From Antedon bifida (lineage: Eukaryota; Echinodermata; Crinoidea; Comatulida; Antedonidae), in the NCBI GenBank assembly GCA_963402885.1, contig OY727101.1:11046917-11110916 (forward strand): a stretch of 64,000 nt of DNA, in the 5' to 3' direction. Below, piece by piece: positions 1,039-30,721 of the stretch (positions are counted from its first letter, which is position 1; every line of letters starts with the position of its first letter). The notes under the pieces are model-generated. The model was not told where the DNA came from, made no database searches, and saw nothing but the letters and a program-made list of their open reading frames with translations. The position numbers were made by a program, and so were the translations under genes.

Positions 1039-1666
1039 ATTATCCACGAGACTGCACCAACATACTTGAACGCAACAGTAAAGCAACAAGTGGTGCTTAC
1101 ATGATCAATATTCGTGATGGAGGTGATCCATTCCAAGTTTACTGCGATATGGACACTGATGGAGGTGGATGGACGGTAGGTTTAATCAATAAGACACATA
1201 ATATTCATGGATGCATATACATAAAACTGGAGCAATTAGTTGGGTGGAGAAAAGAAATGTAGTAAAAGTAGATCAGAAAATGAAAAATAAGCAACACATT
1301 TTCTGTACCTCGAAACATTGCAGTATAGGAATAGTACATTTTCAATATCCTTGGAATAAATGTATTTTGTTAGCTTTCTATTACAATTGTTATTCTATTT
1401 TATGAAGGTTTTTCAGAGACAAGAAGATGGATCTATGGATTTCTAAAAAAATTGGGCAGCATACAAGACAGGGTTTGGGAATGTTAATGGTGAGCATTGG
1501 CTTGGTAATGATAACATTTATCGTCTTACGTCGTCGGATGGTCACTTTGAATTGAACATGTCAACATTTGAAGGAGGATCAGCATACACTCACTATGACA
1601 ACTTTCGAATAGGTGATGAGAGAAGTAACTACAAACTGACATTTGGCACTTACAGTGACAATGCAG
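1039..1666 (+). pseudogene. Orphan FReD exon pair (A cassette), unit 1, broken
   Basis: Exon A1 is 1039-1175 (AG acceptor at 1037-1038, donor gtaggt) and A2 is 1408-1666 (donor gtaggg). They encode the first two thirds of a fibrinogen-related domain: DYPRDCTNILERNSKATSGA through GGGWT, then VFQRQEDGSMDF through YSDNAG. Phases 1/0/1 match the full genes. In this copy a TAA replaces the Tyr codon after DF, and one extra codon lies near 1532. As in the other copies, the LRVD strand of the domain is shortened to LN. No signal exon precedes it and no third FReD exon follows before the next gene starts at 2679, so alone it cannot make a complete domain. Probably a relic of a partial duplication. 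Confidence 0.8.
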
Positions 1667-2634
1667 GTAGGGTTTTTAGCTAATTATTGTCTAATGTTAA
1701 TGTTCCCACCTAACTCTCATACTTCTTTAATCTACACTATTCAATTATCTAATGATCTTTTATCCTACCATGCTTTTGCCATTGCCAAGAGCTTGGCTAT
1801 ATCTGTCATTTCGAAACTAGGGATTGAGTTTACTTAAAAATCCACAATTTATATATAATTTTTATATATAAAAAACTTTTGTAAAGTAATGGTTTTTGCT
1901 TCACTTTGATATTTATTTGTTGTAATTCAATGTAAACTAATATTTATTTTATTGATATTTGTATACCCATTTGTACTGTCAACACAGCCTTGTATAGTAA
2001 CACCAAATAATAGTGAAACAAACTATTGTGTTTAAAGAAAGTTATAATAATAATTATAAAAATAAAAACAAAAATAATAATACCACCAACTTACTATTTA
2101 TTACTATTTAACATCTATATTCAGTTTACTAACAAATTGACTTGATTTCTTTAATATTTCATATAACGGCACTTTATCTTCCACAAGATTTATATACTAT
2201 ATATAACATGTTTTTATTTTTCATAAGGTAGAGTTACTTTAATTTTATTATTGAGGATATTACGTTATATGCTGATGAGTGCCATGTACTCTTAAAATGC
2301 ATGTTTAAGTACGAAATTCATTCTGCCATTTTGTATATATCAACTTAAGACTTATGGGATAGGCATACATACTGATATACTGAATGATATATTCCATTAG
2401 ATATTATTTGTTTAATTTATTAGTTATTTCCATGTTTCATGGATTATATTGTTTGTATAATAGATTTGTATTACACAAAGTGCTTACAAACGCTAATTTA
2501 GAATCAACCATTTATGTAGCCCACTTGACTGCTAGGAAACTCCCAGCTGAAAATGAAAAAATAAATAGAGCTGACTGGTGCTACCTTCCATTAATTGATT
2601 ACGGTTTTCTGATACTAAGACACGACTCCCGGCT

Positions 2635-2641
2635 TATATAT
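2635..2641 (+). promoter_or_regulatory. Candidate TATA box of FReD gene 1
   Basis: TATATAT follows CCCGGCT and lies 44 bp upstream of the ATG. It is conserved in all three units (11718-11724 and 22228-22234). With normal TATA spacing the 5' UTR would be only about 10-20 bases, so the start site needs confirmation. Confidence 0.45.
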
Positions 2642-2678
2642 CAGACAGGTAGTTTGGTGACTGTGACGGTAAAACAGA

Positions 2679-5600
2679 ATGCTAGGAAGATGTTTCCTAC
2701 TGTCACTGCTGGTGACTCTGGCACTTAGCTATGTTGTAGAGAATGAAGAACTGGATGGTGTTTCTCAATTAATTGTTATAAAAAATGAATGTGGCGATGA
2801 GACAAAAGGAAAGGGTATGGCATTCTTTATAATATATATATATCCTAGAGTTGTTGAGGGATATAGACTTATAGTTATATTTAGTTCATATTTGTGTCGT
2901 CATCTCTCATTTTGTATATAATTTACATGTTCCACAATAGTTTTTAATCAACACTATTTCAAAGAGAAAAATATTAAAGTCATATACTTTAAAGAAAGTC
3001 ATAAAGGTTAATGTTAAGTCCATGTTTGAACTTATTACAAGTTCAGTCCTAAATGGTTAATTCTAACTTATTACAAGATAAATCATAAAATGTTTGTTTT
3101 CAAACTTATAAAAGATAGTCATAGGTTTGTTCAAATGCATTACATGATAGTTCTAAAAATGTTAATGTTTGAACTTAATATTACACATTAAGTAATGAAA
3201 CATGTGTCCAAATATACAAATATATTAGCAAATAAAACGATTACATAATATTGTCGAACACGAACCTTTATGTTTTTGTAAGTGCTATTCCAAATATTAA
3301 GTTGATCTGTGTGTTTAAAATATAACAATATAATTACTGATCTGTATCTTTAACCAGGTGGTAGTTTATGCAAATTAGAACTTACTATGCTGTATGCTTG
3401 TGCAGTGATTAGTTCACTTGTGATATGTAGCTTGTTGGGTAAAACACAAGAACAACTTAGCCTAAAGTTAGACTGAGGTTAAGAGACTTACTAAAGTTAG
3501 AGTGAGGCCTAGTTTATAAATGCCTTCACTTTAGAAGCCTAAAGTTAGACTGAAATGCTAAACTATCTTTATAGAATGACGTATTATATAGTTTTAGAGG
3601 CTATACTTTAGCACAGCCTAAAGTTTTAATGAGGTCTGGAGTTTTAGTTTAGTCGTAGGCCTACCTAGTAAGACACTGGCATATTTATTTATTTTATTTA
3701 TTTATTTATTCAAGATCCAACATATCAAGAAAAACACCAATACAGGATCGCCATAAAATATACATTTGATTTACTGTACATAAAAAAGGAAAACAAACAG
3801 ATTTATATATTATTAAAAATGACATTAAAGACAGATACAACTAAAAATATCGATGTAAGGAAACATTTGAACTAAATTATTATATGAATGGGCAACCCGA
3901 CGAAAAATACTGTTTTTACATATATTAACACGAGAAAACTGTACTTTTAACAAATTATATACAAAGTTTACGCACAGGGACACGAATATGAAGTTGAGAG
4001 ACAAATTTACAATCAAACTTTGAATTTAGGCATTTAAAAAGAAAGATCATGTTGGTTTGTGTGCGTCTAGTACTTTGCAAGAATTTACTGGTGTTAAGCC
4101 AACCAGCTGCTGGGCCAAGGAATTTTATGAATTTAGTATGAATCCGATTCTTGTGGCATGTATTTGGGATATTGAGTTGTAGATAACAGAAGGACGGAGT
4201 AATTAATGAGGTATAAAGGTCAAATTTAGCAGGAGGTGAAAGATATTTGCAATGTCGCCACATCAGCCCGAGCAGCCGGTTCGCTATTTTAACCATAGAA
4301 TCCACATGAGTAGAAAAAGTTAATTTTTCATCCATGTGAATGCCAAGATCGCGGTGCACTTCAACCCTTTCCAGATAATCACTATTAATTTTGTAATCAT
4401 AGGCGACAAGATTTTCTTTCTTTTTTAAGGAACATGTTAAAACTTAACATATCTTTGTTAGCACTTTATTTATATACTCCTTTACTTTGTCAATCAACCA
4501 ATTATTTTTTAACTATTGTGTAGACTATTATTTATTTGTAAATCTTTTCAAAGGTTATCCACAGGATTGCACCACCATACTTGAGCGCAACAGCAAAGCC
4601 AAAAGTGGTGCTTACATGATCAATATTCATGATGGAGGTGAACCATTCCGTGTTTACTGCGATATGGACACTGAAGGAGGTGGATGGACAGTAAGGCTAA
4701 TAGACTGGGGCTATATTTAGGTTTAATTTACTGTAAGAGTATCAAGTATATTGAAATAAACATTTCAGTGACACCTAGGCCTACAGTGCAATTGATACGA
4801 ATACTATTAAACATAATTTCAATCTTCCAAATTCCTGCTATTAACATATCAGCATTTTATTATATTTTAACAGTTTCTTTTGTTTTAAACCTTTGTTTGT
4901 AAAGGTCTTTCAAAGACGAGAAGATGGATCCATGAATTTCTATAGAAATTGGGCAACATACAAGGCAGGGTTTGGGAATGTTAATAGTGAGCATTGGCTT
5001 GGTAATGATAACATTCATCGCCTTACGTCTGATGGCCACTTTGAATTAAGAGTGGACATGTCCACCTTTGAAGGAGAATCGGCCTACGCACACTACGGCA
5101 ACTTCAGAATAGGTGATGAGGGAAGTAACTACAAACTGATATGTGGTAACTACAGTGGTAATGCAGGTAAGGACTTGCTTTCACACGTTTGGCTCATCTA
5201 CAGTACATTCTGGTTCAACACTTTAAATACTGTATGTACAGTGGAATATAGTATTAATAATCAAATATTAAATAGCACCAATTTCAAAACAATGATCAAA
5301 GACGCATACTCTGAAATTTTCTAAATAAATGAGTTTTTAAATTAATTTTAAATAAGTAAAAAGTGGGTGAAAGTTTAAATGTATAGACTAAAAAAAATTA
5401 GTAAAATAATGAAAATTATAAGAGTTTGGTTAAAGAAACCAGAACTAATGCACTGTGTACTCTAGTGTGAAATATACAAATTACTATGAAATAAAGAATA
5501 AAAGAATAAATGTGGGACACACCCACTGAAAAAAAAGACATCTAATAATAAATAATTTATTTTTTATTTTTTTCATAAAAACAGTTGCATGTCACAAATA

Positions 5601-6491
5601 TGATATCTCATGGCCTCACGGCCAAATTCGCTCATGATTTTTAAAGTGATAATAAACATCAAAAACACAGGAGAGGGAAACATGGTCAGTCAAACACTCT
5701 AAAATTGTTAACATGAGAACAATTTCAGACATCAGGGATTGCAAAATTCAATTTTATATGCCTATTAAGTCACAGAAACAAATGGGACAAAATTATACAT
5801 AATATATTAATCACTTATCGAAATATTACATCCTCTATTACTGCACTGAGAGAATCAAAGCTGGAAGATATATTGGAATATTCCTTTATCATTCAATACA
5901 TTTGAATAAACATTTTACAACTTTTGTTTATTGGTCAACATTAAATGTTGTAGTCAATTAATTTCAGCAATTAAAATGTATAAATGAATAATTATTATAT
6001 AAATATATAATTATTATATTGAGATTATGTGGGGTCGTATTCTTATTGAACCATAAACAGTGCATACTTTTGGAAAACATCCCTACTTGGGGCAACTCAT
6101 GGTTCAACATAAATTTGTAATTGTTAATAACTAATTACATTAGGACGTACTATATACCAAAGTGCACATTATGTCCAATTTACTGAAATTAGGCTAGATT
6201 GTACTCAAGTGATATTTAAATATAATTATTATCTTTATTTTAGGTGATTCACTGACAGGACATAACAATCTCCAGTTTTCGACGTTTGACCAAGATCATG
6301 ACACATCAGCCTCATCATGTTCTGTGTCATTAAAAGCAGCTTGGTGGTATGGTGGCTGTCATAGTTCAAATCTGAATGGATTGTACCTGGGTGGTACAAC
6401 TGATCAGAATGCAAAAGGTGTGGTGTGGGGAAATTGGAAAGGGCACTACTATTCCTTGAAAACGACTGAGATGAAAATACGTAGAATTTAA
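2679..6491 (+). CDS. Secreted fibrinogen-related-domain lectin, gene 1 (4 exons, 260 aa)
   Basis: Exons: 2679-2814, 4554-4690, 4905-5166, 6244-6491 (stop TAA). All introns are GT-AG with phases 1, 0, 1. Residues 1-18 form a hydrophobic signal peptide (MLGRCFLLSLLVTLALSY). A short acidic linker follows with a single Cys (NECGDE), a candidate inter-chain disulfide. The rest is one FReD with GGGWTVFQRREDGSMNFYRN, LRVDMSTFEG, the calcium-loop DQDHDTSASSC and CHSSNLNGLYLGG, the region that shapes the ligand pocket in ficolins and tachylectin-5. The layout (signal, short Cys-bearing linker, FReD, no collagen or Ig part) and length resemble MFAP4-like and tachylectin-like proteins; a role as a secreted pattern-recognition lectin is inferred from the family. 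AATAAA lies at 6559-6564. The ligand is unknown. Confidence 0.88.
3000..3265. repeat. Inverted minisatellite block in intron 1, unit 1 (copies near 11990-12255 and 22600-22865)
   Basis: This block is built from the reverse complement of the motif at 105-430, for example CATAAAATGTTTG..TTCAAACTTATAA. The two blocks therefore face each other across about 2.6 kb that includes the A cassette and the signal exon. The rest of intron 1 (3400-3660) repeats GCCTAAAGTTAGACTGA several times and holds no gene. Confidence 0.65.
3682..4440 (-). mobile_element. 5'-truncated LINE fragment (reverse transcriptase C-terminus), unit 1
   Basis: Read on the minus strand this encodes HRDLGIHMDEKLTFSTHVDS, then MVKIANRLLGLMWR and downstream residues. 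This is the region after the reverse transcriptase catalytic core in Jockey/CR1-type non-LTR retrotransposons (compare the general pattern DLGV.ID.KL.F..H). The minus-strand 3' end carries an AATA-type tandem tail at 3682-3712, as LINE insertions often do. It lies antisense in intron 1 of FReD gene 1, and the same copy is in units 2 and 3, so it landed before the tandem duplication. The exact LINE clade is not decided here. Confidence 0.75.
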
Positions 6492-6568
6492 TGGTAGCAT
6501 GATATAGTGAAGTTGATAACTTGAGTTAAACTCAGAGTATAATAATTAATTGAAAATTAATAAAATTC

Positions 6569-6900
6569 AGACACTTTCCCTATGTTTTTAAAAATGTATG
6601 TAAAATTAAATACTATTAATGTGAAAAATAAGTTGATTCTAATAATTTAATCAGGCCGCTATAAATACTAGCATGCATCATGCACAGATTGATATTTTCG
6701 TTTTGTTTCTGTGATGCAATATATCGTGAAGGGAAAATATAGAAGAACAGTATTTCCCCGATTTTTAACAGATCCTGTAAAAAAAAGCACAATTCAGCTA
6801 CAAGAAAACACCAGGCTAGGTCTACAGCTAGCACACAATGTTCATACGTTACTGACATAAGCCCTGTCTACTAGGTCATTCAACACAAGCTATTAGGTAA
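6569..6900. mobile_element. Truncated inverted-repeat element, 3' flank of gene 1
   Basis: It starts at GACACTTTCCCTATG about 80 bp after the stop codon and matches the complete element at 23516-24137: GTGAAAAATAAGTTGATTCT, AGGCCGCTATAAAT, CAGATTGATATTTTCGTTTT, and a region ending near AGCTATTAGGTAA. The right terminal repeat is missing. Short reading frames on either strand inside it are incidental. Confidence 0.7.
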
Positions 6901-7379
6901 TACTACTGTAGCAGGAACCTGTGCTCCGCACAGTCTTTATCTGCCTTACTATGTGGTTATAAACTTCACATGGGATAATAATAATATATGATAAAAGTAC
7001 TCTGACAATTTGTTAAAATAAAAAAAAATTGTATCAAGAATAAAATTTGCAAACATTGATTTTTTTTTTACACTATTCCTTGACTTTGAAATATCTGTAA
7101 GCTAAAAATTGAAAGCAATACTGGATATGGAACTTTAGACTTTACTTTGACTGTTCAGACTTTATAAAAATAGAAGACGCTAAAGAAATATTGTGCTGTG
7201 TGAATATTATACTATGGTGCGCATCAGAAATTGACAATGTGCATGTACATAAGAGGGACATGCAGTTTAAAATATTTCAATGATAAAATAAAAAAAAATG
7301 GTAATTTATAGTGAGATGTATTAAATGATACAGCTGCTTACGGACTTAAAATAAACACAAAAAACAACAATATGCTTTA

Positions 7380-9130
7380 TTTAAACGCGAAAACTTGGCT
7401 CAACTAGCAGTTGTTTTTCTGCAAGGCCGTGTATAAAAACAAAAAGTTCATCAGATAAACATTGATAGGTGCTTGTGAAAAAATTACACCTTCATTCTGT
7501 GACGCTTCTCTTCAGGCATATGGTATTTAGACGGCGATAATAAAATCGTTGGGTTTGTAGCCTCAAAGACTAAATTCTAGTGCTATATTTGGACTTAGGT
7601 TAGCGAAAGCTGTGGCAATGGATATTAAATGTTCACCAGACTGTGATCAGACTGAACGATACTTTAATGTCCATTCACTTGTTTAACTACACGTGCCCCA
7701 CATTTGGACATTTCATTTTATAGATTTTGTAGTAGAAGGGTTGTAGTAGAAGGGGTCAGCCAAAACTTGTACTGTCAGACAATGGTACAAATTTTGTTGG
7801 GGGTAAAAGGGAATTAAGTAAAGTAATGGAAATGTTGGATTTTAGTAAAATTAAAAACCATATGACTCATGAAGGAATTGGATGGAGTTTTAATCCACCT
7901 TTAAATCCACATTGCACATTAAAGACACTAAAGAAAGTCTAATTAAATCATCCAAAAAAAATCAATGATTGCAATATTAGGCAAGGATAATAGCAAAATT
8001 AACCTTAGAAAGAACTTATGAAACATTTTTGGAATAGATGGGTTAAAGAATGGCTACCTACAATGAATAAAAAAAAATGGAAAGATCACACTCATGACTT
8101 TAAAGTTAATGATATTGTTATTGTAATGTGAGAGGACAATTACCATTTTTAAAAAAAAAATTTTTTTTTTTTAAATTTTGCCCAGCGGTGGGAGGCTGCA
8201 GGGGCTCTAGTTGGGGAGCCAAAGGCAAAAAGAGCCACCTTTTTAGGCCTCTAGGCTAGCTAGCTAGTTTTCTAACTTGTCTTAGCTCAGCCCCACTATC
8301 GAGCTGGTCATAGATACCCCACGTCGGAAAGATCTTGGCCCCACCACTGCAATTGCCATGTAGAATACTTGTTATCCTGGATTAGATAACCATGTTAGAG
8401 TTGTTAAGTGGTGAATTCCTAAGAAATATTACGAAGATTTGTCATTTAGAAATGCTGCCGAGTTAGATTAAGCTGTTTGAATTGTAGTTATATGTGTTAA
8501 ATGGAAAAATAATATATGCGATATAAAGTGAATATTAATTGAAAGAATAAAATGTTAAAATAAATAAAAGAAACAAGAATTAATTAATCAATGAATTGTA
8601 CATAGATAAAATTAATTAAAAGAAACAAGATTTATTCAATGAATTGTACATACATAAAAATAAAATATAAACAAATAAAAAAAAATTAATTAAAAAATGA
8701 AAAATCGAAATATTTATTTAAGTTCATTAAAGAAATATATAAATGAGAAGAAATTGAAACAAAATAAACAATGTATGGGAATAGACTAGGAGGGGGACAA
8801 TGTTCAGAAGAATAGTTGCATTGTAATTGTTGCATGAATTCTTTCTTAGATGGTTGAACACCTTTCTGTAAATTAGTTACGAACGTGTATGCACGGCGTA
8901 GCGTGTGTTCAGTTCAGTTCTTTTTGTTGTTGCAGGCGAAAATTTATTCGATTATTGCAACAGTTTAACACACTTTGTTCGCTCTTCAATTGTGAAGATT
9001 AAATTTCGGAGTAAACCTGTCACTATCCGACAGGGTTTACTAAATATATTGCATAAAACAAACAATAGGTGTAATTATTTAATTAATATTTTATATCTTG
9101 CCCTTGTATAATATTAAATTCTCAAAAAAA
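7380..9130 (+). mobile_element. BEL/Pao retroelement fossil, 3' part, unit 1
   Basis: This is the remains of the 3' portion of a BEL/Pao LTR retroelement. Visible parts, in order, are a piece resembling Pao-type RNase H (around LCDASLQAYG), an integrase core piece (LSDNGTNFVGG, GIGWSFNPPLNPHC), a piece of the C-terminal domain typical of the family (WLPTMN, KWKDHTHDFKVNDIVIV), a purine-rich tract at 8788-8797, and a probable 3' LTR from 8801 to about 9130. No 5' LTR, gag or protease is seen. It is broken in many places. The same fossil in unit 2 dates the insertion to before that duplication. Confidence 0.75.
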
Positions 9131-10173
9131 AAGTTTCAAGGTATGGAAGACGGTATGGTAACAAATTTGTGTTTGAACATATTGTTCCAATTTCCCTTAG
9201 GATAACAATATTTGTAATATTTTTATTTGTTTATGGATTATGAAATTTTCAATTTATGACTTACCTTGTAATACTATGTTTGAACACGAACCTTTTATGA
9301 CTTTATCTTGTAATACACTAGTACAATACCTTACATGACTTATCTTGTAATATGTTCGTACACTACCTTTTTATGATTACTATTAAGTTCAAACACGAAC
9401 CTTTCATGACTTAACTTATAAGTTCAAACACAAACATTTTATAACTTGCCATGAAATAAGTTCAAACACGAACCTTTCATAACTTAACTTATAAGTTCAA
9501 ACATGAACATTCTATAAATTATCTAGAAATAACTTTGCACAAAATTTATGTTAAATATTGTACTACATTGCACTATTTTAGAGTATGACCCTTTCACAAA
9601 TTATCTTGCATTACATTAAAAAACAAACTGTTATGTAATAGGTGCTGAAAAATGACTTGTAATGTTCAAGTATGACAGGAATAATATTATTTTGTAATCT
9701 TTATGTTTGTAATAGATAGATATGCTTGTGATTTTGTTATGCATTTAAAAAACATACTACAGATTGACAAAATCTACAAAAACCTACTCAAATCAGATCA
9801 ACAAAACATTTCAAAGGTGCCTCAACAGTCAAAAATATCTATGCATTTTGTATTATTTGTATAAAAATCTGGATCTGCTGCTCCAGACTAATAGGGGTAG
9901 GATATTTTAAAAATACTAACTAAAAATAGACACTACTCACACAGAGGCAGAATCGCATATGTAACTATAAATGCACTTTATGCACTAAATGAATTAAATT
10001 ACCATCAAAGGTGACAGTTTATGTTATTTTGTATTATTAAAATGTTTATTCACTTTTCAATTTTTTTTAAGGACTCGATAAAACAAAATTCCTACGTTGT
10101 CATTTTAAAATGCCAGAAAACAAGATTTTATTTAGCAAATAAACCTGTTCAATGTTAAAACAACTTTTTAAAG

Positions 10174-10795
10174 ATTATCCACAAGACTGCACAGACTTAC
10201 TTGAACGCAACAGTGAAGCAACAAGTGGTGCTTACATGATCAATATTCGTGATGGAGGTAAACCATTCAGAGTTTACTGCGATATGGACACTGATGGAGG
10301 TGGATGGACGGTAGGTTTAATCAATAAGACACATAATAGTCATGGATGCATATACATAAAACTGGAGCAAGTTGGGTGGAGAAAAGAAATGTAGTAAAAG
10401 TAGATCAGAAAATGAAAAATAAGCAACACATTTTCTGTACCTCAAAACATTGCAGTATAGGAATAGTACATTTTCAATATCCTTGGAATAAATGTATTTT
10501 GTTAGCTTTCTATTACAATTGTTATTATATTTTATGAAGGTTTTTCAGACACGAGAAGATGGATCTATGGGCTTCTATAGAAATTGGGCAGCATACAAGG
10601 CAGGGTTTGGGAATGTTAATGGTGAGCATTGGCTTGGTAATGATAACATTTATCGTCTTACGTCGGATGGTCACTTTGAATTGAACATGTCAACATTTGA
10701 AGGAAGATCAGCATACACTCACTATGACAACTTTCGAATAGGTGATGAGAGAAGTAACTACAAACTGACATTTGGCACTTACAGTGGCAATGCAG
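10174..10795 (+). pseudogene. Orphan FReD exon pair (A cassette), unit 2, reading frame open
   Basis: Exons A1 10174-10310 and A2 10540-10795, with intact acceptors and donors (gtaggt, gtaggg). The frame is open across both: DYPQDCTDLLERNSEATSGA through GGGWT, then VFQTREDGSMGFYRNW through YSGNAG. The conserved LRVDM strand is shortened by two residues to LNM, as in the other A copies. No partner signal exon or third FReD exon is present in the cassette. Because its splice phases (1, 0, 1) equal those of exons 2 and 3 of the complete genes, it could in principle be spliced from the signal exon of unit 1 and onto a downstream exon 4. It is filed as a pseudogene because it lacks the calcium-loop third of the domain. 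Confidence 0.65.
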
Positions 10796-11761
10796 GTAGG
10801 GTTTTTAGCTAATTATTGTCTAATGTTAATGTTCCCACCTAACTCTCATACTTCTTTAATCTACACTATTCAATTATCTAATGATCTTTTATCCTACCGT
10901 GCTTTTGCCATTGCCAAGAGCTTGGCTATATCTGTCATTTCGAAACTAGGGATTGAGTTTACTTAAAAAGCCACAATTTATATATAATTTTTATATATAA
11001 AAAACTTTTGTAAAGTAATGATTTTTGCTTCACTTTGATATTTATTTGTTGTAATTCAATGTAAACTAATATTTATTTTATTGATATTTGTATACCCATT
11101 TGTACTGTCAACACAGCCTTGTATAGTAACACCAAATAATAGTGAAACAAACTATTGTGTTTAAAGAAAGTTATAATAATAATAATAATAAAAATAAAAA
11201 CAAAAATAATAATACCACCAACTTACTATTTATTACTATTTAACATCTATATTCAGTTTACTAACAAATTGACTTGATTTCTTTAATATTTCATATAACG
11301 GCACTTTATCTTCCACAAGATTTATATACTATATATAACATGTTTTTATTCTTCATAAGGTAGAGTTACTTTAATTTTATTATTGAGGATATTACGTTAT
11401 ATGCTGATGAGTGCCATGTACTCTTAAAATGCATGTTTAAGTACGAAATTCATTCTGCCATTTTGTATATATCAACTTAAGACTTATGGGATAGGCATAC
11501 ATACTGATATACTGAATGATATATTCCATTAGATATTATTTGTTTAATTTATTAGTTATTTCCATGTTTCATGGATTATATTGTTTGTATAATAGATTTG
11601 TATTACACAAAGTGCTTACAAACGCTAATTTAGAATCAACCATTTATGTAGCCCACTTGACTGCTACCTTCCATTAATTGATTACGGTTTTCTGATACTA
11701 AGACACGACTCCCGGCTTATATATCAGACAGGTAGTTTGGTGACTGTGACGGTAAAACAGA

Positions 11762-14700
11762 ATGCTAGGAAGATGTTTCCTACTGTCACTGCTGGTGACT
11801 CTGGCACTTAGCTATGTTGTAGAGAATGAAGAACTGGATGGTGTTTCTCAATTAATTGTTATAAAAAATGGATGTGGCGATGAGACAAAAGGAAAGGGTA
11901 TGGCATTCTTTATAATATATATATATCCTAGAGTTGTTGAGGGATATAGTTGTTGAGGGATATTAAAGTCATATACTGTAAAGCAAGTCATAAAGGTTAA
12001 TGTTAAGTCCATGTTTGAACTTATTACAAGTTCAGTCCTAAATGGTTAATTCTAACTTATTACAAGATAAATCATAAAATGTTTGTGTTCAAACTTATAA
12101 AAGATAGTCATAGGTTTGTTCAAATGCATTACATGATAGTTCTAAAAATGTTAATGTTTGAACTTAATATTACACATTAAGTAATGAAACATGTGTCCAA
12201 ATATACAAATATATTAGCAAATAAAACGATTACATAATATTGTCGAACACGAACCTTTATGTTTTTGTAAGTGCTATATTAAGTTGATCTGTGTGTTTAA
12301 AATATAACAATATAATTACTGATCTGTATTTTTAACCAGGTGGTAGTTTATGCAAATTAGAACTTACTATGCTATATGCTTGTGCAGTGATTAGTTCACT
12401 TGTGATATGTAGCTTGTTGGGTAAAACACAAGAACAACTTAGCCTAAAGTTAGACTGAGGTTAAGAGACTTACTAAAGTTAGAGTGAGGCCTAGTTTATA
12501 AATGCCTTCACTTTAGAAGCCTAAAGTTAGACTGAAATGCTAAACTATCTTTATAGAATGACGTATTATATAGTTTTAGAGGCTATACTTTAGCACAGCC
12601 TAAAGTTTTAATGAGGTCTGGAGTTTTAGTTTAGTCGTAGGCCTACCTAGTAAGACACTGGCATATTTATTTATTTTATTTATTTATTCAAGATCCAACA
12701 TATCAAGAAAAACACCAATACAGGATCGCCATAAAATATACATTTGATTTACATAAAAAAGGAAAACAAACAGATTTATATATTATTAAAAATGACATTA
12801 AAGACAGATACAACTAAAAATATCGATGTAAGGAAACATTTGAACTAAATTATTATATGAATGGGAAACCCGACGAAAAATACTGTTTTTACATATATTA
12901 ACACGAGAAAACTGTACTTTTAACAAATTATATACAAAGTTTACGCACAGGGACACGAATATGAAGTTGAGAGACAAATTTACAATCAAACTTTGAATTT
13001 AGGCATTTAAAAAGAAATATCATGTTGGTTTGTGTGCGTCTAGTACTTTGCAAGAATTTACTGGTGTTAAGCCAACCAGCTGCTGGGCCAAGGAATTTTA
13101 TGAATTTAGTATGAATCCGATTCTTGTGGCATGTATTTGGGATATTGAGTTGTAGATAACAGAAGGACGGAGTAATTAATGAGGTATAAAGGTCAAATTT
13201 AGCAGGAGGTGAAAGATATTTGCAATGTCGCCACATCAGCCCGAGCAGCCGGTTCGCTTTTTTAACCATAGAATCCACATGAGTAGAAAAAGTTAATTTT
13301 TCATCCATGTGAATGCCAAGATCGCGGTGCACTTCAACCCTTTCCAGAGAATCACTATTAATTTTGTAATCATAGGTGACAAGATTTTCTTTCTTTTTTA
13401 AGGAACATGTTAAAACTTAACATATCTTTGTTAGCACTTTATTTATATACTCCTTTACTTTGTCAACCAACCAGTTATTTTTTAACTATTATGTAGACTA
13501 TTATTTATTTGTAAATCTTTTCAAAGGTTATCCACAGGATTGCACCACCATACTTGAGCGCAACAGCAAAGCCAAAAGTGGTGCTTACATGATCAATATT
13601 CATGATGGAGGTGAACCATTCCGTGTTTACTGCGATATGGACACTGAAGGAGGTGGATGGACAGTAAGGCTAAACCAGTATAGTACACTAATAGACTGGG
13701 GCTATATTTAGGTTTAATTTACTGTAAGAGTATCAAGTATATTGAAATAAACATTTCAGTGACACCTAGGCCTACAGTGCAATTGATACGAATACTATTA
13801 AACATAATTTCAATCTTCCAAATTCCTGCCATTAACATATCAGCATTTTATTATATTTTAACAGTTTCTTTTGTTTTAAACCTTTGTTTGTAAAGGTCTT
13901 TCAAAGACGAGAAGATGGATCCATGAATTTCTATAGAAATTGGGCAACATACAAGGCAGGGTTTGGGAATGTTAATAGTGAGCATTGGCTTGGTAATGAT
14001 AACATTCATCGCCTTACGTCTGATGGTCACTTTGAATTAAGAGTGGACATGTCCACCTTTGAAGGAGAATTGGCCTACGCACACTACGGCAACTTCAGAA
14101 TAGGTGATGAGGGAAGTAACTACAAACTGATATGTGGTAACTACAGTGGTAATGCAGGTAAGGACTTGCTTTCACACGTTTGGCTCATCTACAGTACATT
14201 CTGGTTCAACACTTTAAATACTGTATGTACAGTGGAATATAGTATTAATAATCAAATATTAAATAGCACCAATTTCAAAACAATGATCAAAGACGCATAC
14301 TCTGAAATTTTCTAAATAAATGAGTTTTTAAATTAATTTTAAATAAGTAAAAAGTGGGTGAAAGTTTAAATGTATAGACTAAAAAAAATTAGTAAAATAA
14401 TGAAAATTATAAGAGTTTGGTTAAAGAAACCAGAACTAATGCACTGTGTACTCTAGTGTGAAATATACAAATTACTATGAAATAAAGAATAAAAGAATAA
14501 ATGTGGGACACACCCACTGAAAAAAAAGACATCTAATAATAAATAATTTATTTTTTTCATAAAAACAGTTGCATGTCACAAATATGATATCTCATGGCCT
14601 CACGGCCAAATTGCGCATGATTTTTAAAGTGATAATAAACATCAAAAACACAGGAGAGGGAAACATGGTCAGTCAAACACTCTAAAATTGTTAACATGAG

Positions 14701-15532
14701 AACAATTTCAGACATCAGGGATTGCAAAATTCAATTTTATATGCCTATTAAGTCACAGAAACAAATGGGACAAAATTATACATAATATATTAATCACTTA
14801 TCGAAATATTACATCCTCTATTACTGCACTGAGAGAATCAAAGCTGGAAGATATATTGGAATATTCCTTTATCATTCAATACATTTGAATAAACATTGTA
14901 CAACTTTTGTTTATTGGTCAACATTAAATGTTGTAGTCAATTAATTTCAGCAATTAAAAATGTATAAATGAATAATTATTATATAAATATATAATTATTA
15001 TATTGAGATTATGTGGGGTCGTATTCTTATTGAACCATAAACAGTGCATACTTTTGGAAAACATCCCTACTTGGGGCAACTCATGGTTCAACATAAATTT
15101 GTAATTGTTAATAACTAATTACTGTACAGTATCTATAAATCAACTTAACTATAGTAAGCCGAATTTCAATAGGTAGTAAATTAGGACGTACTATATACCA
15201 AAGTGCACATTATGTCCAATTTACTGAAATTAGGCTAGATTGTACTCAAGTGATATTTAAATATAATTATTATCTTTATTTTAGGTGATTCACTGACAGG
15301 ACATAACAATCTCCAGTTTTCGACGTTTGACCAAGATCATGACACATCAGCCTCATCATGTTCTGTGTCATTAAAAGCAGCTTGGTGGTATGGTGGCTGT
15401 CATAGTTCAAATCTGAATGGATTGTACCTGGGTGGTACAACTGATCAGTATGCAAAAGGTGTGGTGTGGGGAAATTGGAAAGGGCACTACTATTCCTTGA
15501 AAACGACTGAGATGAAAATACGTAGAATTTAA
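11762..15532 (+). CDS. Secreted fibrinogen-related-domain lectin, gene 2 (4 exons, 260 aa)
   Basis: Exons: 11762-11897, 13527-13663, 13896-14157, 15285-15532, with the same GT-AG junctions and phases as gene 1. The protein is nearly identical to that of gene 1. Differences seen include NGCGDE for NECGDE in the linker, FEGELAY for FEGESAY, and TDQYAKG for TDQNAKG near the C-terminus. The signal peptide, calcium loop (DQDHDTSASSC) and CHSSNLNG motif are intact and no defect is visible, so it should be functional. The TATA-like TATATAT is at 11718-11724 and AATAAA at 15600-15605. Intron 2 carries a small insertion near 13675 relative to gene 1. Likely product of the most recent tandem duplication. 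Confidence 0.88.
12661..13413 (-). mobile_element. LINE fragment, unit 2 copy
   Basis: This is the same antisense reverse-transcriptase C-terminal fragment as in unit 1, at the same place in intron 1 and with the same AATA-type tail. It encodes MVKKANRLLGLMWR where unit 1 has MVKIANRLLG. Confidence 0.75.
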
Positions 15533-15608
15533 TGGTAGCATGATATAGTGAAGTTGATAACTTGAGTTAAACTCAGAGTATAATAATTAATTGAAAATTA
15601 ATAAACTT

Positions 15609-15945
15609 CAGACACTTTCCCTATGTTTTTAAAAATGTATGTAAAATTAAATACTATTAATGTGAAAAATAAGTTGATTCTAATAATTTAATCAGGCCGC
15701 TATAAATACTAGCATGCATCATGCACAGATTGATATTTTCGTTTTGTTTCTGTGATGCAATATATCGTGAAGGGAAAATATAGAAGAACAGTATTTCCCC
15801 GATTTTTAACAGATCCTGTAAAAAAAAGCACAATTCAGCTACAAGAAAACACCAGGCTAGGTCTACAGCTAGCACACAATGTTCATACGTTACTGACATA
15901 AGCCCTGTCTACTAGGTCATTCAACACAAGCTATTAGGTAATACT
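15609..15945. mobile_element. Truncated inverted-repeat element, 3' flank of gene 2
   Basis: Same element and same truncation as at 6569-6900, about 75 bp after the stop codon of gene 2. Confidence 0.7.
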
Positions 15946-16429
15946 AGCAGGAACCTGTGCTCCGCACGGTCTTTATCTGCCTTACTATGTGGTTATAAAC
16001 TTCACATGGGAGGAGTAAGTATAATAAATAATAATATATGATAAAAGTACTCTGACAATTTGTTAAAATAAAAAAAAATTGTATCAAGAATAAAATTTGC
16101 AAACATTGATTTTTTTTTTTACACTATTCCTTGACTTTGAAATATCTGTAAGCTAAAAATTGAGAGCAATACTGGATATGGAACTTTAGACTTTACTTTG
16201 ACTGTTCAGACTTTATAAAAATAGAAGACGCTAAAGAAATATTGTGCTGTGTGAATATTATACTATGGTGCGCATCAGAAATTGACAATGTGCATGTACA
16301 TAAGAGGGACATGCAGTTTAAAATATTTCAATGATAAAATAAAAAAAAAATGGTAATTTATAGTGAGATGTATTAAATGATACAGCTGCTTACGGACTTA
16401 AAATAAACACAAAAAACAACAATATGCTT

Positions 16430-18022
16430 TATTTAAACGCGAAAACTTGGCTCAACTAGCAGTTGTTTTTCTGCAAGGCCGTGTATAAAAACAAAAAGTT
16501 CATCAGATAAACATTGATAGGTGCTTGTGAAAAAATTACACCTTCATTCTGTGACGCTTCTCTTCAGGCATATGGTATTTAGACGGCGATAATAAAATCG
16601 TTGGGTTTGTAGCCTCAAAGACTAAATTCTAGTGCTATATTTGGACTTAGGTTAGCGAAAGCTGTGGCAATGGATATTAAATGTTCACCAGACTGTGATC
16701 AGACTGAACGATACTTTAATGTCCGTTCACTTGTTTAACTACACGTGCCCCACATTTGGACATTTCTCAAGTTTTATAGATTTTGTAGTAGAAGGGTTGT
16801 AGTAGAAGGGGTCAGGGGTTGTACTGTCAGACAATGGTACAAATTTTGTTGGGGTAAAAGGGAATTAAGTAAAGTAATGGAAATGTTGGATTTTAGTAAA
16901 ATTAAAAACCATATGACTCATGAAGGAATTGGATGGAGTTTTAATCCACCTTTAAATCCACATTGCACATGTCTAAAGAAAGTCTAATTAAATCATCCAG
17001 TTAATTAGTTAAAGTTAATGATATTGTTATTGTAAAAGATAGATATAATGTGAGAGGACAATTGCCCAGCGGTGGGAGGCTGCAGGGGCTCTAGCCCCCT
17101 CGTTGGGGAGCCAAAGGCAAAAAGAGCCACCTTTTTAGGCCTCTAGGCTAGCTAGCTAGTTTTCTAACTTGTCTTAGCTCAGCCCCACTATCGAGCTGGT
17201 CATAGATACCCCACGTCGGAAAGATCTTGGCGCCACCACTGCAATTGCCATGTAGAATACTTGTTATCCTGGATTAGATAACCATGTTAGAGTTGTTAAG
17301 TGGTGAATTCCTAAGAAATATTACGAAGATTTGTCATTTAGAAATGCTGCCGAGTTAGATTAAGCTGTTTGAATTGTAGTTATATGTGTTAAATGGAAAA
17401 ATAATATATGTGATATAAAGTGAATATTAATTGAAAGAATAAAATGTTAAAATAAATAAAAGAAACAAGAATTAATTAATCAATGAATTGTACATAGATA
17501 AAATTAATTAAAAGAAACAAGATTTATTCAATGAATTGTACATACATAAAAATAAAATATAAACAAATAAAAAAAAATTAATTAAAAAATGAAAAATCGA
17601 AATATTTATTTAAGTTCATTAAAGAAATATATAAATGAGAAGAAATTGAAACAAAATAAACAATGTATGGTAATAGACAAGGAGGGGGACAATGTTCAGA
17701 AGAATAGTTGTATTGTAATTGTTGCATGAATTCTTTCTTAGATGGTTGAACACCTTTCTGTAAATTAGTTACGAACGTGTATGCACGGCGTAGCGTGTGT
17801 TCAGTTCAGTTCTTTTTGTTGTTGCAGGCGAAAATGTATTCGATTATTGCAACAGTTTAACACACTTTGTTCGCTCTTCAATTGTGAAGATTAAATTTCG
17901 GAGTAAACCTGTCACTATCCGACAGGGTTTACTAAATATATTGCATAAAACAAACAATAGGTGTAATTATTTAATTAATATTTTATATCTTGCCCTTGTA
18001 TAATATTAAATTCTCAAAAAAA
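16430..18022 (+). mobile_element. BEL/Pao retroelement fossil, unit 2 copy
   Basis: Collinear with 7380-9130 and from the same original insertion. It keeps the integrase core piece (KRELSKVMEMLDFSKIKNHM, GIGWSFNPPLNPHC), the purine tract and the probable LTR starting at 17693. Part of the C-terminal domain region present in unit 1 is missing. It is broken in many places. Confidence 0.72.
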
Positions 18023-19051
18023 AAGTTTCAAGGTATGGAAGACGGTATGGTAACAAATTTGTGTTTGAACATATTGTTCCAATTTCCCTTAGGATAACAA
18101 TATTTGTAATATTTTTATTTGTTTATGGATTATGAAATTTTCAATTTATGACTTACCTTGTAATACTATGTTTGAACACGAACCTTTTATGACTTTATCT
18201 TGTAATACACTAGTACAATACCTTACATGACTTATCTTGTAATATGTTCGTACACTACCTTTTTATGATTACTATTAAGTTCAAACACGAACCTTTCATG
18301 ACTTAACTTATAAGTTCAAACACAAACATTTTATAACTTGCCATGAAATAAGTTCAAACACGAACCTTTCATAACTTAACTTATAAGTTCAAACATGAAC
18401 ATTCTATAAATTATCTAGAAATAACTTTGCACAAAATTTATGTTAAATATTGTACTACATTGCACTATTTTAGAGTATGACCCTTTCACAAATTATCTTG
18501 CATTACATTAAAAAACAAACTGTTATGTAATAGGTGCTGAAAAATGACTTGTAATGTTCAAGTATGACAGGAATAATATTATTTTGTAATCTTTATGTTT
18601 GTTTGTGATTTTGTTATGCATTTAAAAAACATACTACAGATTGACAAAATCTACAAAAACCTACTCAAATCAGATCAACAAAACATTTCAAAGGTGCCTC
18701 AACAGTCAAAAATATCTATGCATTTTGTATTATTTGTATAAAAATCTGGATCTGCTGCTCCAGACTAATAGGGGTAGGATATTTTAAAAATACAAACTAA
18801 AAATAGACACTACTCACACAGAGGCAGAATCGCATATGTAACTATAAATGCACTTTATGCACTAAATGAATTAAATTACCATCAAAGGTGACAGTTTATG
18901 TTATTTTGTATTATTACAATGTTTATTCACTTTTCAATTTTTTTAAGGACTCGATAAAACAAAATTCCTACGTTGTCATTTTAAAATGCCAGAAAACAAG
19001 TTTTTATATATAGCAAATAAACCTGTTTAATGTTAAAACAACTTTTTAAAG

Positions 19052-19676
19052 ATTATCCACGAGACTGCACCAACATACTTGAACGCAACAGTAAAGCCAA
19101 AAGTGGTGCTTACATGATCAATATTCGTGATGGAGGTGATCCATTCCAAGTTTACTGCGATATGGACACTGATGGAGGTGGATGGACGGTAGGCTTAATC
19201 AATAAGACACATAATATTCATGGATGCATATACATAAAACTGGAGCAATTAGTTGGGTGGAGAAAAGAAATGTAGTAAAAGTAGATCAGAAAATGAAAAA
19301 TAAGCAACACATTTTCTGTACCTCGAAACATTGCAGTATAGGAATAGTACATTTTCAATATCCTTGGAATAAATGTATTTTGTTAGCTTTCTATTACAAT
19401 TGTTATTATATTTTATGAAGGTTTTTCAGAGACAAGAAGATGGATCTATGGATTTCTATAAAAATTGGGCAGCATACAAGACAGGGTTTGGGAATGTTAA
19501 TGGTGAGCATTGGCTTGGTAATGATAACATTTATCGTTTTACGTCGGATGGTCACTTTGAATTGAACATGTCAACATTTGAAGGAGGATCAGCATACACT
19601 CACTATGACAACTTTCGAATAGGTGATGAGAGAAGTAACTACAAACTGACATTTAGCACTTACAGTGGCAATGCAG
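19052..19676 (+). pseudogene. Orphan FReD exon pair (A cassette), unit 3, reading frame open
   Basis: Exons A1 19052-19188 and A2 19421-19676. Splice sites are intact and the frame is open: DYPRDCTNILERNSKAKSGA through GGGWT, then VFQRQEDGSMDFYKNW through YSGNAG. It is closest to the unit 1 cassette (shared RQEDGSMDF and KTGFG) but without the stop. It has the same two-residue loss in the LRVDM strand and no companion first or last exon. Like the unit 2 copy it may be a relic or an alternative exon pair. Confidence 0.65.
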
Positions 19677-20654
19677 GTAGGGTTTTTAGCTAATTATTGT
19701 CTAATGTTAATGTTCCCACCTAACTCTCATACTTCTTTAATCTACACTATTCAATTATCTAATGATCTTTTATCCTACCGTGCTTTTGCCATTGCCAAGA
19801 GCTTGGCTATATCTGTCATTTCGAAACTAGGGATTGAGTTTACTTAAAAAGCCACAATTTATATATAATTTTTATATATAAAAAACTTTTGTAAAGTAAT
19901 GGTTTTTGCTTCACTTTGATATTTATTTGTTGTAATTCAATGTAAACTAATATTTATTTTATTGATATTTGTATACCCATTTGTACTGTCAACACAGCCT
20001 TGTATAGTAACACCAAATAATAGTGAAACAAACTATTGTGTTTAAAGAAAGTTATAATAATAATTATAAAAATAAAAACAAAAATAATAATACCACCAAC
20101 TTACTATTTATTACTATTTAACATCTATATTCAGTTTACTAACAAATTGACTTGATTTCTTTAATATTTCATATAACGGCACTTTATCTTCCACAAGATT
20201 TATATACTATATATAACATGTTTTTATTTTTCATAAGGTAGAGTTACTTTAATTTTATTATTGAGGATATTACGTTATATGCTGATGAGTGCCATGTACT
20301 CTTAAAATGCATGTTTAAGTACGAAATTCATTCTGCCATTTTGTATATATCAACTTAAGACTTATGGGATAGGCATACATACTGATATACTGAATGATAT
20401 ATTCCATTAGATATTATTTGTTTAATTTATTAGTTATTTCCATGTTTCATGGATTATATTGTTTGTATAATAGATTTGTATTACACAAAGTGCTTACAAA
20501 CGCTAATTTAGAATCAACCATTTATGTAGCCCACTTGACTGCTAGGAAACTCCCAGCTGAAAATGAAAAAATAAATAGAGCTGACTGGTGCTACCTTCCA
20601 TTAATTGATTACGGTTTTCTGATACTAAGGGCCTGTTTCTGCTGCATACAAAAT

Positions 20655-22179: not shown

Positions 22180-22271
22180 AAATTGCGTTATGCAGCAGAA
22201 ACAGACCCTAAGACACGACTCCCGGCTTATATATCAGACAGGTAGTTTGGTGACTGTGACGGTAAAACAGA

Positions 22272-25200
22272 ATGCTAGGAAGATGTTTCCTACTGTCACT
22301 GCTGGTGACTCTGGCACTTAGCTATGTTGTAGAGAATGAAGAACTGGATGGTGTTTCTCAATTAATTGTTATAAAAAATGAATGTGGCGATGAGACAAAA
22401 GGAAAGGGTATGGCATTCTTTATAATATATATATATCCTAGAGTTGTTGAGGGATATAGACTTATAGTTATATTTAGTTCATATTTGTGTCGTCATCTCT
22501 CATTTTGTATATAATTTACATGTTCCACAATAGTTTTTAATCAACACTATTTCAAAGAGAAAAATATTAAAGTCATATACTTTAAAGAAAGTCATAAAGG
22601 TTAATGTTAAGTCCATGTTTGAACTTATTACAAGTTCAGTCCTAAATGGTTAATTCTAACTTATTACAAGATAAATCATAAAATGTTTGTTTTCAAACTT
22701 ATAAAAGATAGTCATAGGTTTGTTCAAATGCATTACATGATAGTTCTAAAAATGTTAATGTTTGAACTTAATATTACACATTAAGTAATGAAACATGTGT
22801 CCAAATATACAAATATATTAGCAAATAAAACGATTACATAATATTGTCGAACACGAACCTTTATGTTTTTGTAAGTGCTATTCCAAATATTAAGTTGATC
22901 TGTGTGTTTAAAATATAACAATATAATTACTGATCTGTATCTTTAACCAGGTGGTAGTTTATGCAAATTAGAACTTACTATGCTGTATGCTTGTGCAGTG
23001 ATTAGTTCACTTGTGATATGTAGCTTGTTGGGTAAAACACAAGAACAACTTAGCCTAAAGTTAGACTGAGGTTAAGAGACTTACTAAAGTTAGAGTGAGG
23101 CCTAGTTTATAATGCCTTCACTTTAGAAGCCTAAAGTTAGACTGAAATGCTAAACTATCTTTATAGAATGACGTATTATATAGTTTTAGAGGCTATACTT
23201 TAGCACAGCCTAAAGTTTTAATGAGGTCTGGAGTTTTAGTTTAGTCGTAGGCCTACCTAGTAAGACACTGGCATATTTATTTATTTTATTTATTTATTTA
23301 TTCAAGATCCAACATATCAAGAAAAACACCAATACAGGATCGCCATAAAATATACATTTGATTTACATAAATAAGGAAAACAAACAGATTTATATATTAT
23401 TAAAAATGACATTAAAGACAGATACAACTAAAAATATCGATGTAAGGAAACATTTGAACTAAATTATTATATGAATGGGCAACCCGACGAAAAATACTGT
23501 TTTTACATATATTAAAGCCCCCTTCCCTACATTTTTTAGATCTAATTTAAGATCACAAACTATATTTAATGTAAAAATAATACTATATGGTCCTATTGCG
23601 TTAACTTTTTTCGTCTTTAAACGGTTAAAAATGTGAAAAATAAGTCGATTCTAATAATTATAGCGGCCCGCTATAAATCCCAAAATGCATTGCGCGCGGA
23701 TTGATATTTTTGTTTTTCACCTGTAATTTGCCCACTTTTCGATCGATCGTGCCGGCCAAAACAAATGGAAGACTCCTAACTTTTCAGCGAAAATACCGGG
23801 TTTTCCCCAATTTGTATCAACGGAGGCAAAAATAGAAAGACAATTAATGCAGCAACTATACAACGTCAGGCTAGGTATATAGCTAGCGTATGATGTTCGT
23901 ACGTTACCGATGTTTACCAGAGGCCTACAAAACTAAGCCTAGCTAGGCTAGGCCTAAGACCGTCCACAAGAGGTCGATCGCCGCGAGCTACTTAGGTAGT
24001 GCATTGTTTCTCACTTTTTATCATAATTTACCATAAAACGTACATTTAAGACAAGGAATGACATGGTTTAATGTTTTTAAAGTGATATATATGTATTATT
24101 TTCCAAAAAACGTCCAAAATTGCAGGGAAGGGGTCTGTAACACGAGAAAACTGTACTTTTAACAAATTATATACAAAGTTTACGCACAGGGACACGAATA
24201 TGAAGTTGAGAGACAAATTTACAATCAAACTTTGAATTTAGGCATTTAAAAAGAAAGATCATGTTGGTTTGTGTGCATCTAGTACTTTGCAAGAATTTAC
24301 TGGTGTTAAGCCAAACAGCTGCTGGGCCAAGGAATTTTATGAATTTAGTATGAATCCGATTCTTGTGGCATGTATTTGGGATATTGAGTTGTAGATAACA
24401 GAAGGACGGAGTAATTAATGAGGTATAAAGGTCAAATTTAGCAGGAGGTGAAAGATATTTGCAATGTCGCCACATCAGCCCGAGCAGCCGGTTCGCTTTT
24501 TTAACCATAGAATCCACATGAGTAGAAAAAGTTAATTTTTCATCCATGTGAATGCCAAGATCGCGGTGCACTTCAACCCTTTCCAGAGAATCACTATTAA
24601 TTTTGTAATCATAGGCGACAAGATTTTCTTTCTTTTTTAAGGAACATGTTAAAACTTAACATATCTTTGTTAGCACTTTATTTATATACTCCTTTACTTT
24701 GTCAATCAACCAATTATTTTTTAACTATTGTGTAGACTATTATTTATTTGTAAATCTTTTCAAAGGTTATCCACAGGATTGCACCACCATACTTGAGCGC
24801 AACAGCAAAGCCAAAAGTGGTGCTTACATGATCAATATTCATGATGGAGGTGAACCATTCCGTGTTTACTGCGATATGGACACTGAAGGAGGTGGATGGA
24901 CAGTAAGGCTAATAGACTGGGGCTATATTTAGGTTTAATTTACTGTAAGAGTATCAAGTATATTGAAATAAACATTTCAGTGACACCTAGCCTACAGTGC
25001 AATTGATACGAATACTATTAAACATAATTTCAATCTTCCAAATTCCTGCTATTAACATATCAGCATTTTATTATATTTTAACAGTTTCTTTTGTTTTAAA
25101 CCTTTGTTTGTAAAGGTCTTTCAAAGACGAGAAGATGGATCCATGAATTTCTATAGAAATTGGGCAACATACAAGGCAGGGTTTGGGAATGTTAATAGTG

Positions 25201-29493: not shown

Positions 29494-30721
29494 TAACCAA
29501 ATTAAATCGAATAAAAAATACATGCTACATAAACATGATATAAACACATTGTTGATTTTTTCCCATAACTGTGGTAAGTTGTTTTCATGTTCAACAATAC
29601 AGTATATCAAACCATTTGGATTCGTTTTATTCATTTAAATTATTTATATTTCAATGGCTTTGATATTTGCAATTTCGTTCGGAATCAAATTGTGGTCTAG
29701 TTTTGATTTAAGCGGTAATATTTATTGTTTACACATTTTGAACTTTCTAAGCATATCAAAATGGCCACAGTGTTTTACTCACTGAGCTAGTCATGATTTA
29801 CAAAATTCATTCTGTTTAAAGGATAGGTGTAGCTAATTAAAACGTACACGGCGCGATCAGTTGGTATGGTTGGCCGGCTGCCGAGACTAAACACTGTTTT
29901 AATTTTGCGGCTTGCCGTGGTATTCGTAGATCCGGCCAGAAAGTGACAGGATTCCTATAAAGTTTCAAGAATAATCAATTTTTGCTCATGAAATACTATG
30001 GTATTTTTACTCATGAAATACTATGGTATTTTTACTGTTGGCCCTTTTTTAACCAAAATGTTTGTCACGAGGAATAAAGGCTTCAGGCTTGAGCTCTGGC
30101 TCGATGCCCATTTATAGCATGTCTTTTTGTCGGAGCAAGAACAGTTAACTGTTCACTTATCTTTATTTATTTATTTATTTTTTTTAAATTCCCCAATATT
30201 TTTGGTTTGGAGTTTATTGACCAATAACAATATGCTATGAGTGAATTGTTGTTTCAAATTTTTCGTTGATTTGAGATATTGAGAGAGTTTGTGTACTTTT
30301 GTAATAAATCCATTTAGTATTATTGCCTTTTCACAATTGTTTGGTGCTTTACAAAAATGAACTTTTTGGGGGATTTCCAGATATTAAAATTCTATTTTAA
30401 AAATGGGTAACAATGTTTATAGTATATTTGTTAGAATTTTATTTCAGTTGCTTTCTATGAGTACCAAATATGGTCAAATGGGCAAAAAGGCTCAGAGATT
30501 TATGGAATTTTTTATTTATGTACGGTAATTTTGCTCAACTAAGCTATATTTTTACCAAAGTTTAACATTTTAAAAATCTGTGGAACAAATGAAAACATAT
30601 TTCATATTTTATTTTAAGGTTCTATCATTAGAAAACTTTATTATATGGTAGCGGTGCATTTTAAAATAATAAAATAAAAAATTGCGATGTCCTAGGACAC
30701 AATAGCTCATTCCAAAATGAC
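29494..30721. other. Gene-free spacer upstream of FReD gene 4
   Basis: AT-rich, with no coding frame of note. A 26-bp direct repeat (CTCATGAAATACTATGGTAT plus neighbours) occurs twice in a row at about 29986-30037. I see nothing else here. Confidence 0.6.

Follow-up and report, generated by a model that had tools for sequence, protein, structure and literature searches.

Several described systems come close to the locus considered here. The FREPs of Biomphalaria glabrata are a FReD family whose diversification is attributed, in passages of PMC12074976, to gene conversion and point mutation, the diversity being placed in the FREP genes and in somatic variants. Sections of PMC5103432 describe the Sp185/333 (SpTransformer) family of the sea urchin as a tandem immune family with segmental duplications, for which gene conversion is proposed, and report the genome sequence of its clusters without pseudogenes or fragments. 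In the chicken, according to parts of PMC449846 and PMC10917233, immunoglobulin pseudo-V copies are templates in B cells. The present analysis concerns a tandem array of FReD genes in the crinoid Antedon bifida (assembly GCA_963402885.1, genome of 315.6 Mb) and, within it, three orphan half-FReD exon pairs (A1, A2 and A3) located between complete genes. The window is the whole stretch of 64,000 nucleotides that was analysed (contig OY727101.1, here C14:11046917-11110916); coordinates are window positions unless a contig is named, and negative numbers lie upstream of it. In the same genome, the COX1 gene of the mitochondrial contig (C27) gives an open frame with genetic code 9, and likewise with codes 5 and 13, and its protein resembles those of echinoderms.

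The complete genes of the array resemble ficolin-type FReD lectins: they encode a leader and one Fibrinogen_C domain, the G1 protein scores 256.5 bits with Pfam PF00147 (curated cut-off 22) and its closest solved structure is ficolin-1 (2d39, E 6.5e-72). They differ from them in that a Pfam scan of the G1 protein detected no further domain (a collagen stem, for instance), and the A cassettes hold only the first ~60% of the domain. In contrast to the FREPs as those passages present them, the diversity lies here in unattached half-genes of a genome assembly. With the Sp185/333 family, in the light of the same sections, the array has in common that it is a tandem immune family of an echinoderm, but this array does contain fragments, and they rank among the parts of the duplicated unit that have diverged most. 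As for the chicken pseudo-V copies, incomplete copies appear to exchange sequence with complete genes; there, the cited parts indicate, the incomplete copies donate, whereas here they would receive, over evolutionary time. The A feature is real and well located, and the best reading of it is a half-gene left orphaned and patched by conversion. Stated fully, with a probability that we put at about 0.6, the cassettes are the middle of an old FReD paralog which was orphaned, triplicated and patched by conversion from complete neighbours, acting as a recipient more than as a donor. Half-FReD cassettes were not named in the titles and abstract openings, among the matches listed, of literature on FReD conversion, alternative exons, pseudogene donors, sea-star and crinoid lectins or exon-limited conversion.

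In the 123.8 kb examined, the array comprises seven FReD genes (G-2, G-1, G0 and G1 to G4), the tandem row extending upstream beyond the window, and a leader exon and exons 2, 3 and 4 are present in each of them. Exon 3 starts at -28357 in G-2, -16511 in G-1 and -4120 in G0; the other starts are given in Table 1. The original prediction, made from the letters alone, had described two extra FReD exons per unit, and its exon coordinates, splice dinucleotides, phases (1, 0, 1), stop in A1 and loss of two residues in the LRVDM strand were all confirmed. Exon 2 of the cassettes measures 137 nt. The length of exon 3 is 256 nt in A2 as in A3, whereas in A1 an in-frame 3-nt insertion brings it to 259 nt; compared with the other array genes, all three copies are two codons short in LRVDM. 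The A exon 3s alone exceed the Fibrinogen_C cut-off (92.5, 89 and 85.5 bits), and a chance resemblance to FReD is excluded by their E-values against the G1 exon-3 protein (3e-37 to 2e-41). No cassette is a complete secreted FReD gene, since neither leader nor last exon is attached and the nearest following exon 4 belongs to another gene. Searching the 123.8 kb by tblastn with the G1 exon proteins (E <= 1) revealed no exon-4 or leader remnant beside A, and similarity to the promoter side of G-1 begins ~720 nt after A exon 3. The cassettes occupy three of the six intergene gaps (G0/G1, G1/G2 and G2/G3). In the other three no A was detected by tblastn, the sole match being a 26-residue exon-2 match in the G3/G4 gap (29462-29539, E 0.80) which was taken for chance. 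The presence of a cassette in every tandem unit thus applies to the three recent units of ~9 kb but not to the array of seven genes.

The longest self-match of the region pairs -4129..2619 with 13887..20629 (98.2% over 6784 columns), running from G0 exon 3 through exon 4 and A1 towards the G1 leader on one side and from G2 exon 3 onward on the other. Since the similarity starts at the 5' edge of exon 3, the amplified block is composed, in this order, of exon 3, exon 4, A exons 2 and 3, leader and exon 2. The cassette does lie in front of a complete gene, as had been proposed, but it can equally be said to lie after one, because the block is bounded by exon 3. This boundary is compatible with an unequal exchange in exon 3: a single orphan copy would have sat between two complete genes, and an exchange anchored in exon 3 would have amplified the block into three copies. 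The A copies descending from one cassette, the open frames of A2 and A3 do not represent independent evidence, although two of three are indeed open and A1 alone carries a stop. When A intron 2 and 230 nt of the A 5' flank were each searched for in the genomic DNA (very common words being skipped), only the three known copies were returned.

The three units were aligned over ~3.5 kb and their variable sites were counted. Exon 2 of the cassette varies at 11/137 sites, exon 3 at 11/256 and intron 2 at 4/229, compared with 4/149 in the 150 nt on the 5' side, 1/150 in the 150 nt on the 3' side and 14/2535 in the distal flanks. The A exons (22/393) are therefore about ten times more variable than the distal sequence (odds ratio 10.7, p = 2.4e-11) and also exceed the proximal non-exon sequence (p = 0.0015), which is itself above the distal one (9/528 vs 14/2535, p = 0.01). 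Taken alone, exon 3 differs from the proximal sequence with p = 0.05 and from the 5' side plus intron 2 with p = 0.15. Pairwise counts of exon versus non-exon differences are 18/393 vs 11/2177 between units 1 and 2 and 20/393 vs 11/2142 between units 2 and 3. In the complete gene, units 1 and 2 differ at 1/139 sites in the leader, 0/137 in exon 2, 2/262 in exon 3 and 1/248 in exon 4 (4/786 over the complete exons of G1 and G2) and at 45/6565 sites elsewhere, while unit 3 shows 0/538 differences from unit 1 over the leader and exons 2-3. When units 1 and 2 are compared in 250-nt windows, the A exons are conspicuous, as is one window of 156 sites at ~2751 (10 differences) which was taken for an alignment artefact beside an indel of intron 1. 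The other two variable places lie at or beyond the ends of the amplified block: G0 exon 3 (12/235 and 14/235) with the intron window behind it (7/250), and the 3' part of G3, where exon 4 is different.

These counts bear on the suggestion that the cassettes are simply relics, that is, sequences in plain neutral decay at the local rate. The stop of A1, the two-residue deletion and the lack of any detected leader or exon 4 would fit this, as would the synonymous-to-nonsynonymous ratio of the differences among A copies, which for both exons is 3:19 and does not differ from the neutral share (p = 0.45). A neutral relic, however, should diverge like its flanks. As the A exons vary well above theirs, decay of this kind is excluded within the block, and we regard it as a very unlikely account of the cassettes. 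The comparison of synonymous and replacement differences which the original prediction had proposed is thus compatible with neutrality in its ratio, but both classes of sites are above the distal flanks; for synonymous sites, with site numbers rounded to 86 synonymous and 303 nonsynonymous, p = 0.017 against the distal and 0.23 against the proximal sequence.

For exon 2, the origin of the differences can be traced. A2 shares 99% identity in exon 2 with G-2, ~39 kb upstream, whereas the introns do not match, so that the similar tract is bounded by dissimilar flanks. Of the 11 variable sites, 10 have both A states represented among six complete genes (G0, with its frameshifted exon 2, being omitted); with a generous null of 0.09 per site the binomial p = 4e-10, a value that is only a guide because sites within one tract are not independent. 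Synonymous differences, counted after rounding, point in the same direction: between A2 and G-2, exon 2 has 1/30 and exon 3 has 18/57 (p = 0.002), the same contrast is seen for A1 and A3 against G-2 (p = 0.007 and 0.013), and between A2 and G4 the values are 4/30 and 21/57 (p = 0.03). No such contrast exists between A2 and G1 or G-1 (p = 0.63 and 0.47), nor a significant one between G-2 and G1, G-1 or G4 (p = 0.79, 1.0 and 0.16). Exon 2 of A is therefore synonymously too close to G-2 and G4 while G-2 itself is not discordant, which designates A as the discordant partner and the likely recipient. The best explanation of these data is that A exon 2 was changed by gene conversion into A, a direction that we infer from the distances, and the differences among A exons probably result in part from overwriting with sequence of complete neighbours. 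The A exons, presumably freed from function, would have been overwritten repeatedly by short tracts of exon size, the exons being the sole stretches similar enough to pair. Such conversion would keep exon 2 open and in frame, make the copies differ and mimic diversification.

The same exchange had been proposed in the opposite sense, with the cassettes as a silent reservoir donating to the complete genes. Conversion between A exon 2 and a complete gene is supported, and the 99% identity of A2 and G-2 by itself suits either direction, but the flow looks inward: the synonymous distances mark A and not G-2 as discordant, the leader and exons 2-3 of G1 to G3 are near-identical between units, and in this one genome the exon-3 states that vary among A copies occur in the complete array genes at a single one of 11 sites. 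Donation is, in our view, the least probable of the accounts discussed here.

The history of exon 3 is a different one. In a tree of exon 3 rooted with two genes of contig C9, the A copies form a clade (support 97) which contains no complete gene and lies outside all complete array genes (91). Three related genes are present at that place (C9:33079001-33099000), one being frameshifted in exon 3 (33085279) and the other two, which are open, having served as outgroup. Between A and the complete genes, exon 3 shows synonymous distances of 0.33-0.51 and nonsynonymous distances of 0.08-0.12. A branch codon model purpose-written for this analysis gave an omega of 0.148 on the A stem and rejected omega = 1 (twice the log-likelihood difference, 2dlnL, 7.37), with values of 5.3 to 13.6 over five sets of trees and taxa, the main one included. 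The A lineage thus appears to be old and to have been under purifying selection before the triplication, A exon 3 having been held as protein for most of its separate history. This signal may stem from a time as a complete gene; the stem omega covers the period before the triplication and is silent on the time that followed the loss of leader and exon 4. It is compatible with a formerly constrained FReD paralog which would have shed its leader and last exon by deletion, leaving exons 2 and 3. That the shared two-residue loss argues for relics was not borne out by this loss itself, because the same exon 3 carries the significant signal of past purifying selection.

A number of results weigh against the reading of A as a recipient of conversion. 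The excess of variation in the exons is strong only in comparisons with A2, units 1 and 3 differing at 6/393 exon and 8/2196 non-exon sites (p = 0.012). Nonsynonymous sites exceed not only the distal sequence (p = 4e-11) but even the proximal non-exon rate (p = 0.001). In exon 3 the variation is untemplated: both A states are found in the seven complete genes at 1/11 sites (2/11 when the two C9 genes are added), and pattern searches with two stretches of its 5' portion (42 and 30 nt), which together include 6 of the 11 sites, hit nothing but the A copies when up to three mismatches were allowed. With all of A2 exon 3 as the DNA query, the best match outside A reached 85%. Of the 11 exon-3 changes, ten are nonsynonymous, the stop included, and the crown omega (that among the A copies) of 2.6 does not differ from 1 (2dlnL 1.05). 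For exon 2, a GENECONV-like permutation on 25 variable sites found no significant pair including A (lowest p = 0.11, for A2 and G-2); one pair without A, G1-G4, gave p = 0.008. Finally, the in-block exons of G1 to G3 are equally donor-like and show no comparable change, and conversion as the cause therefore needs selection against converted copies in these genes. The recipient reading does not account for the fast change of exon 3, for which the candidates are A-type donors that were not seen, local mutation and selection. Positive selection among the A copies was tried as a candidate with the codon model and is unsupported.

A whole-cassette conversion by such A-type donors, whether other cassettes, lost complete A genes, or copies in other haplotypes or individuals, would account both for exon 3 and for the slightly raised variation of intron 2 and the 5' side, in agreement with the raised proximal sequence and with the absence of a significant difference between exon 3 and the 5' side plus intron 2. 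In this genome, however, the searches with intron 2 and the 230-nt flank gave the three known copies only, and the exons overall remain above the proximal sequence. We hold this to be as doubtful as plain decay.

Whether the cassettes could be used as alternative exons depends on their splicing. GT/AG dinucleotides and in-frame phases are present in all three copies, and the two combinations tried, from the leader ending at 2814 through A2 to exon 4 of G2 and from that ending at 11897 through A3 to exon 4 of G3, are both in frame. The former chimera scores 238.5 bits for Fibrinogen_C, compared with 256.5 for native G1. The read-through that had been proposed therefore works as a frame, but a simple scan for leaders (ATG frame of 24 or more codons, hydrophobic start and phase-1 donor; leaders outside these criteria would be missed) detected none upstream of A in the three gaps, while recovering the G1 leader as control and giving a mean of 0.05 hits in 200 shuffles of one gap. 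Moreover, an AATAAA is located 70 nt past the last codon in G0, G1 and G2, the genes that precede the A copies, and one copy of three has a stop. Functional alternative exons, in which a leader (that of the unit or an unseen one) would be joined to A and to exon 4 of the next unit and the N-terminal FReD halves would diversify under selection, could also draw on the past purifying selection, on the 19 nonsynonymous differences out of 22 with their rate above both distal and proximal non-exon sequence, and on the rarity of such exons. Of 53 exon-3 matches on contigs C9 and C14, 50 have an exon 4 within 30 kb downstream, one accepted pair spanning 27 kb and perhaps being false, and the three without are A1 to A3; the count was made on these contigs and left out 41/94 exon-3 and 25/78 exon-4 matches (those on C7, C8, C11 and others, a distant C14 gene and half of a frameshifted exon). 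Against such a use, the crown omega is not significantly above 1, the exon-2 changes are templated and not new, and synonymous sites are also above the distal flanks. A spliced and selected A cassette thus seems unlikely from these sequence features, and functional alternative exons are improbable as an explanation of the locus. That A is expressed by long-range or read-through splicing as a dedicated variable half-domain, exons 2-3 of G1 to G3 being the conserved half and the variable half changing about ten times faster than distal DNA, would be a long shot. If true, expressed variable halves would be a route to lectin diversity in an echinoderm which was not found described among the literature matches listed.

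Returning to conversion into unused copies, it plausibly produced here what is often taken as function, namely orphan exons with open reading frames and differing amino acids, and the flanking DNA of near-identical units is a control for such claims. The notion that orphan half-FReDs are common debris was rejected for contigs C9 and C14 by the count above. Three exon 4s on C9 have no preceding exon 3. On C7, two blocks of FReD exons (C7:8895865-8936443 and 8954964-8995544) repeat with a spacing of ~59.1 kb, which suggests either that a large segment was recently duplicated or that the assembly contains it twice.

Table 1. Exons of the orphan cassettes and of the complete FReD genes in the window.
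Feature	Position	Strand	Remarks
A1 orphan exon 2	1039..1175	+	phase 1 to 0
A1 orphan exon 3	1408..1666	+	phase 0 to 1; TAA at 1444-1446; 3-nt insertion
Non-coding, from A1 exon 3 to start of sequence shared with G-1 promoter side	1667..2387	+	no exon-4 remnant found
G1 leader (signal) exon	2679..2814	+	donor after 2814, phase 1
G1 exon 2	4554..4690	+	
G1 exon 3	4905..5166	+	
G1 exon 4 with stop	6244..6491	+	AATAAA 70 nt past last codon
A2 orphan exon 2, open	10174..10310	+	99% identical to G-2 exon 2 (C14:11017916-11018052); introns not matching
A2 orphan exon 3, open	10540..10795	+	
G2 leader exon	11762..11897	+	
G2 exon 2	13527..13663	+	
G2 exon 3	13896..14157	+	
G2 exon 4 with stop	15285..15532	+	AATAAA 70 nt past last codon
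A3 orphan exon 2, open	19052..19188	+	states in common with G-1
A3 orphan exon 3, open	19421..19676	+	
G3 leader exon	22272..22407	+	
G3 exon 2	24766..24902	+	
G3 exon 3	25116..25377	+	
G3 exon 4	26596..26843	+	diverged from G1/G2 exon 4; 85% amino-acid identity to G1
G4 leader exon	30825..30969	+	no A cassette found adjoining G4
G4 exon 2	38077..38213	+	
G4 exon 3	38370..38631	+	
G4 exon 4	40744..40991	+	

Some complete genes of the array are themselves altered. G0 (C14:11037734-11044401, upstream of the window) is a damaged chimera, in which a frameshifted exon 2 of G4 type is followed by a 3' half of unit type; its exon 3 has a 27-nt in-frame deletion over the stretch where A is short of two residues. 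Exon 4 of G-2 (C14:11019518-11019751) is shortened in frame by a 12-nt deletion and is without the stop of the other genes, its frame extending by some codons. Over its last 127 nt, G3 intron 3 shows 100% identity to that of G-2, and it is followed by an exon 4 unlike that of G1 and G2 (26469-26843); the 3' end of G3 is another mosaic, here in a complete gene. A repeat around aagttcaaacacgaac is present in the A 5' flank and, inverted, in intron 1 of each unit (9256-9535 and 3018-3254). In unit 3 only, an insertion at 20629-22208, just upstream of the G3 leader, has matching inverted ends (ggcctgtttctgctgcat / atgcagcagaaacagacc) and resembles a DNA transposon flanked by terminal inverted repeats.

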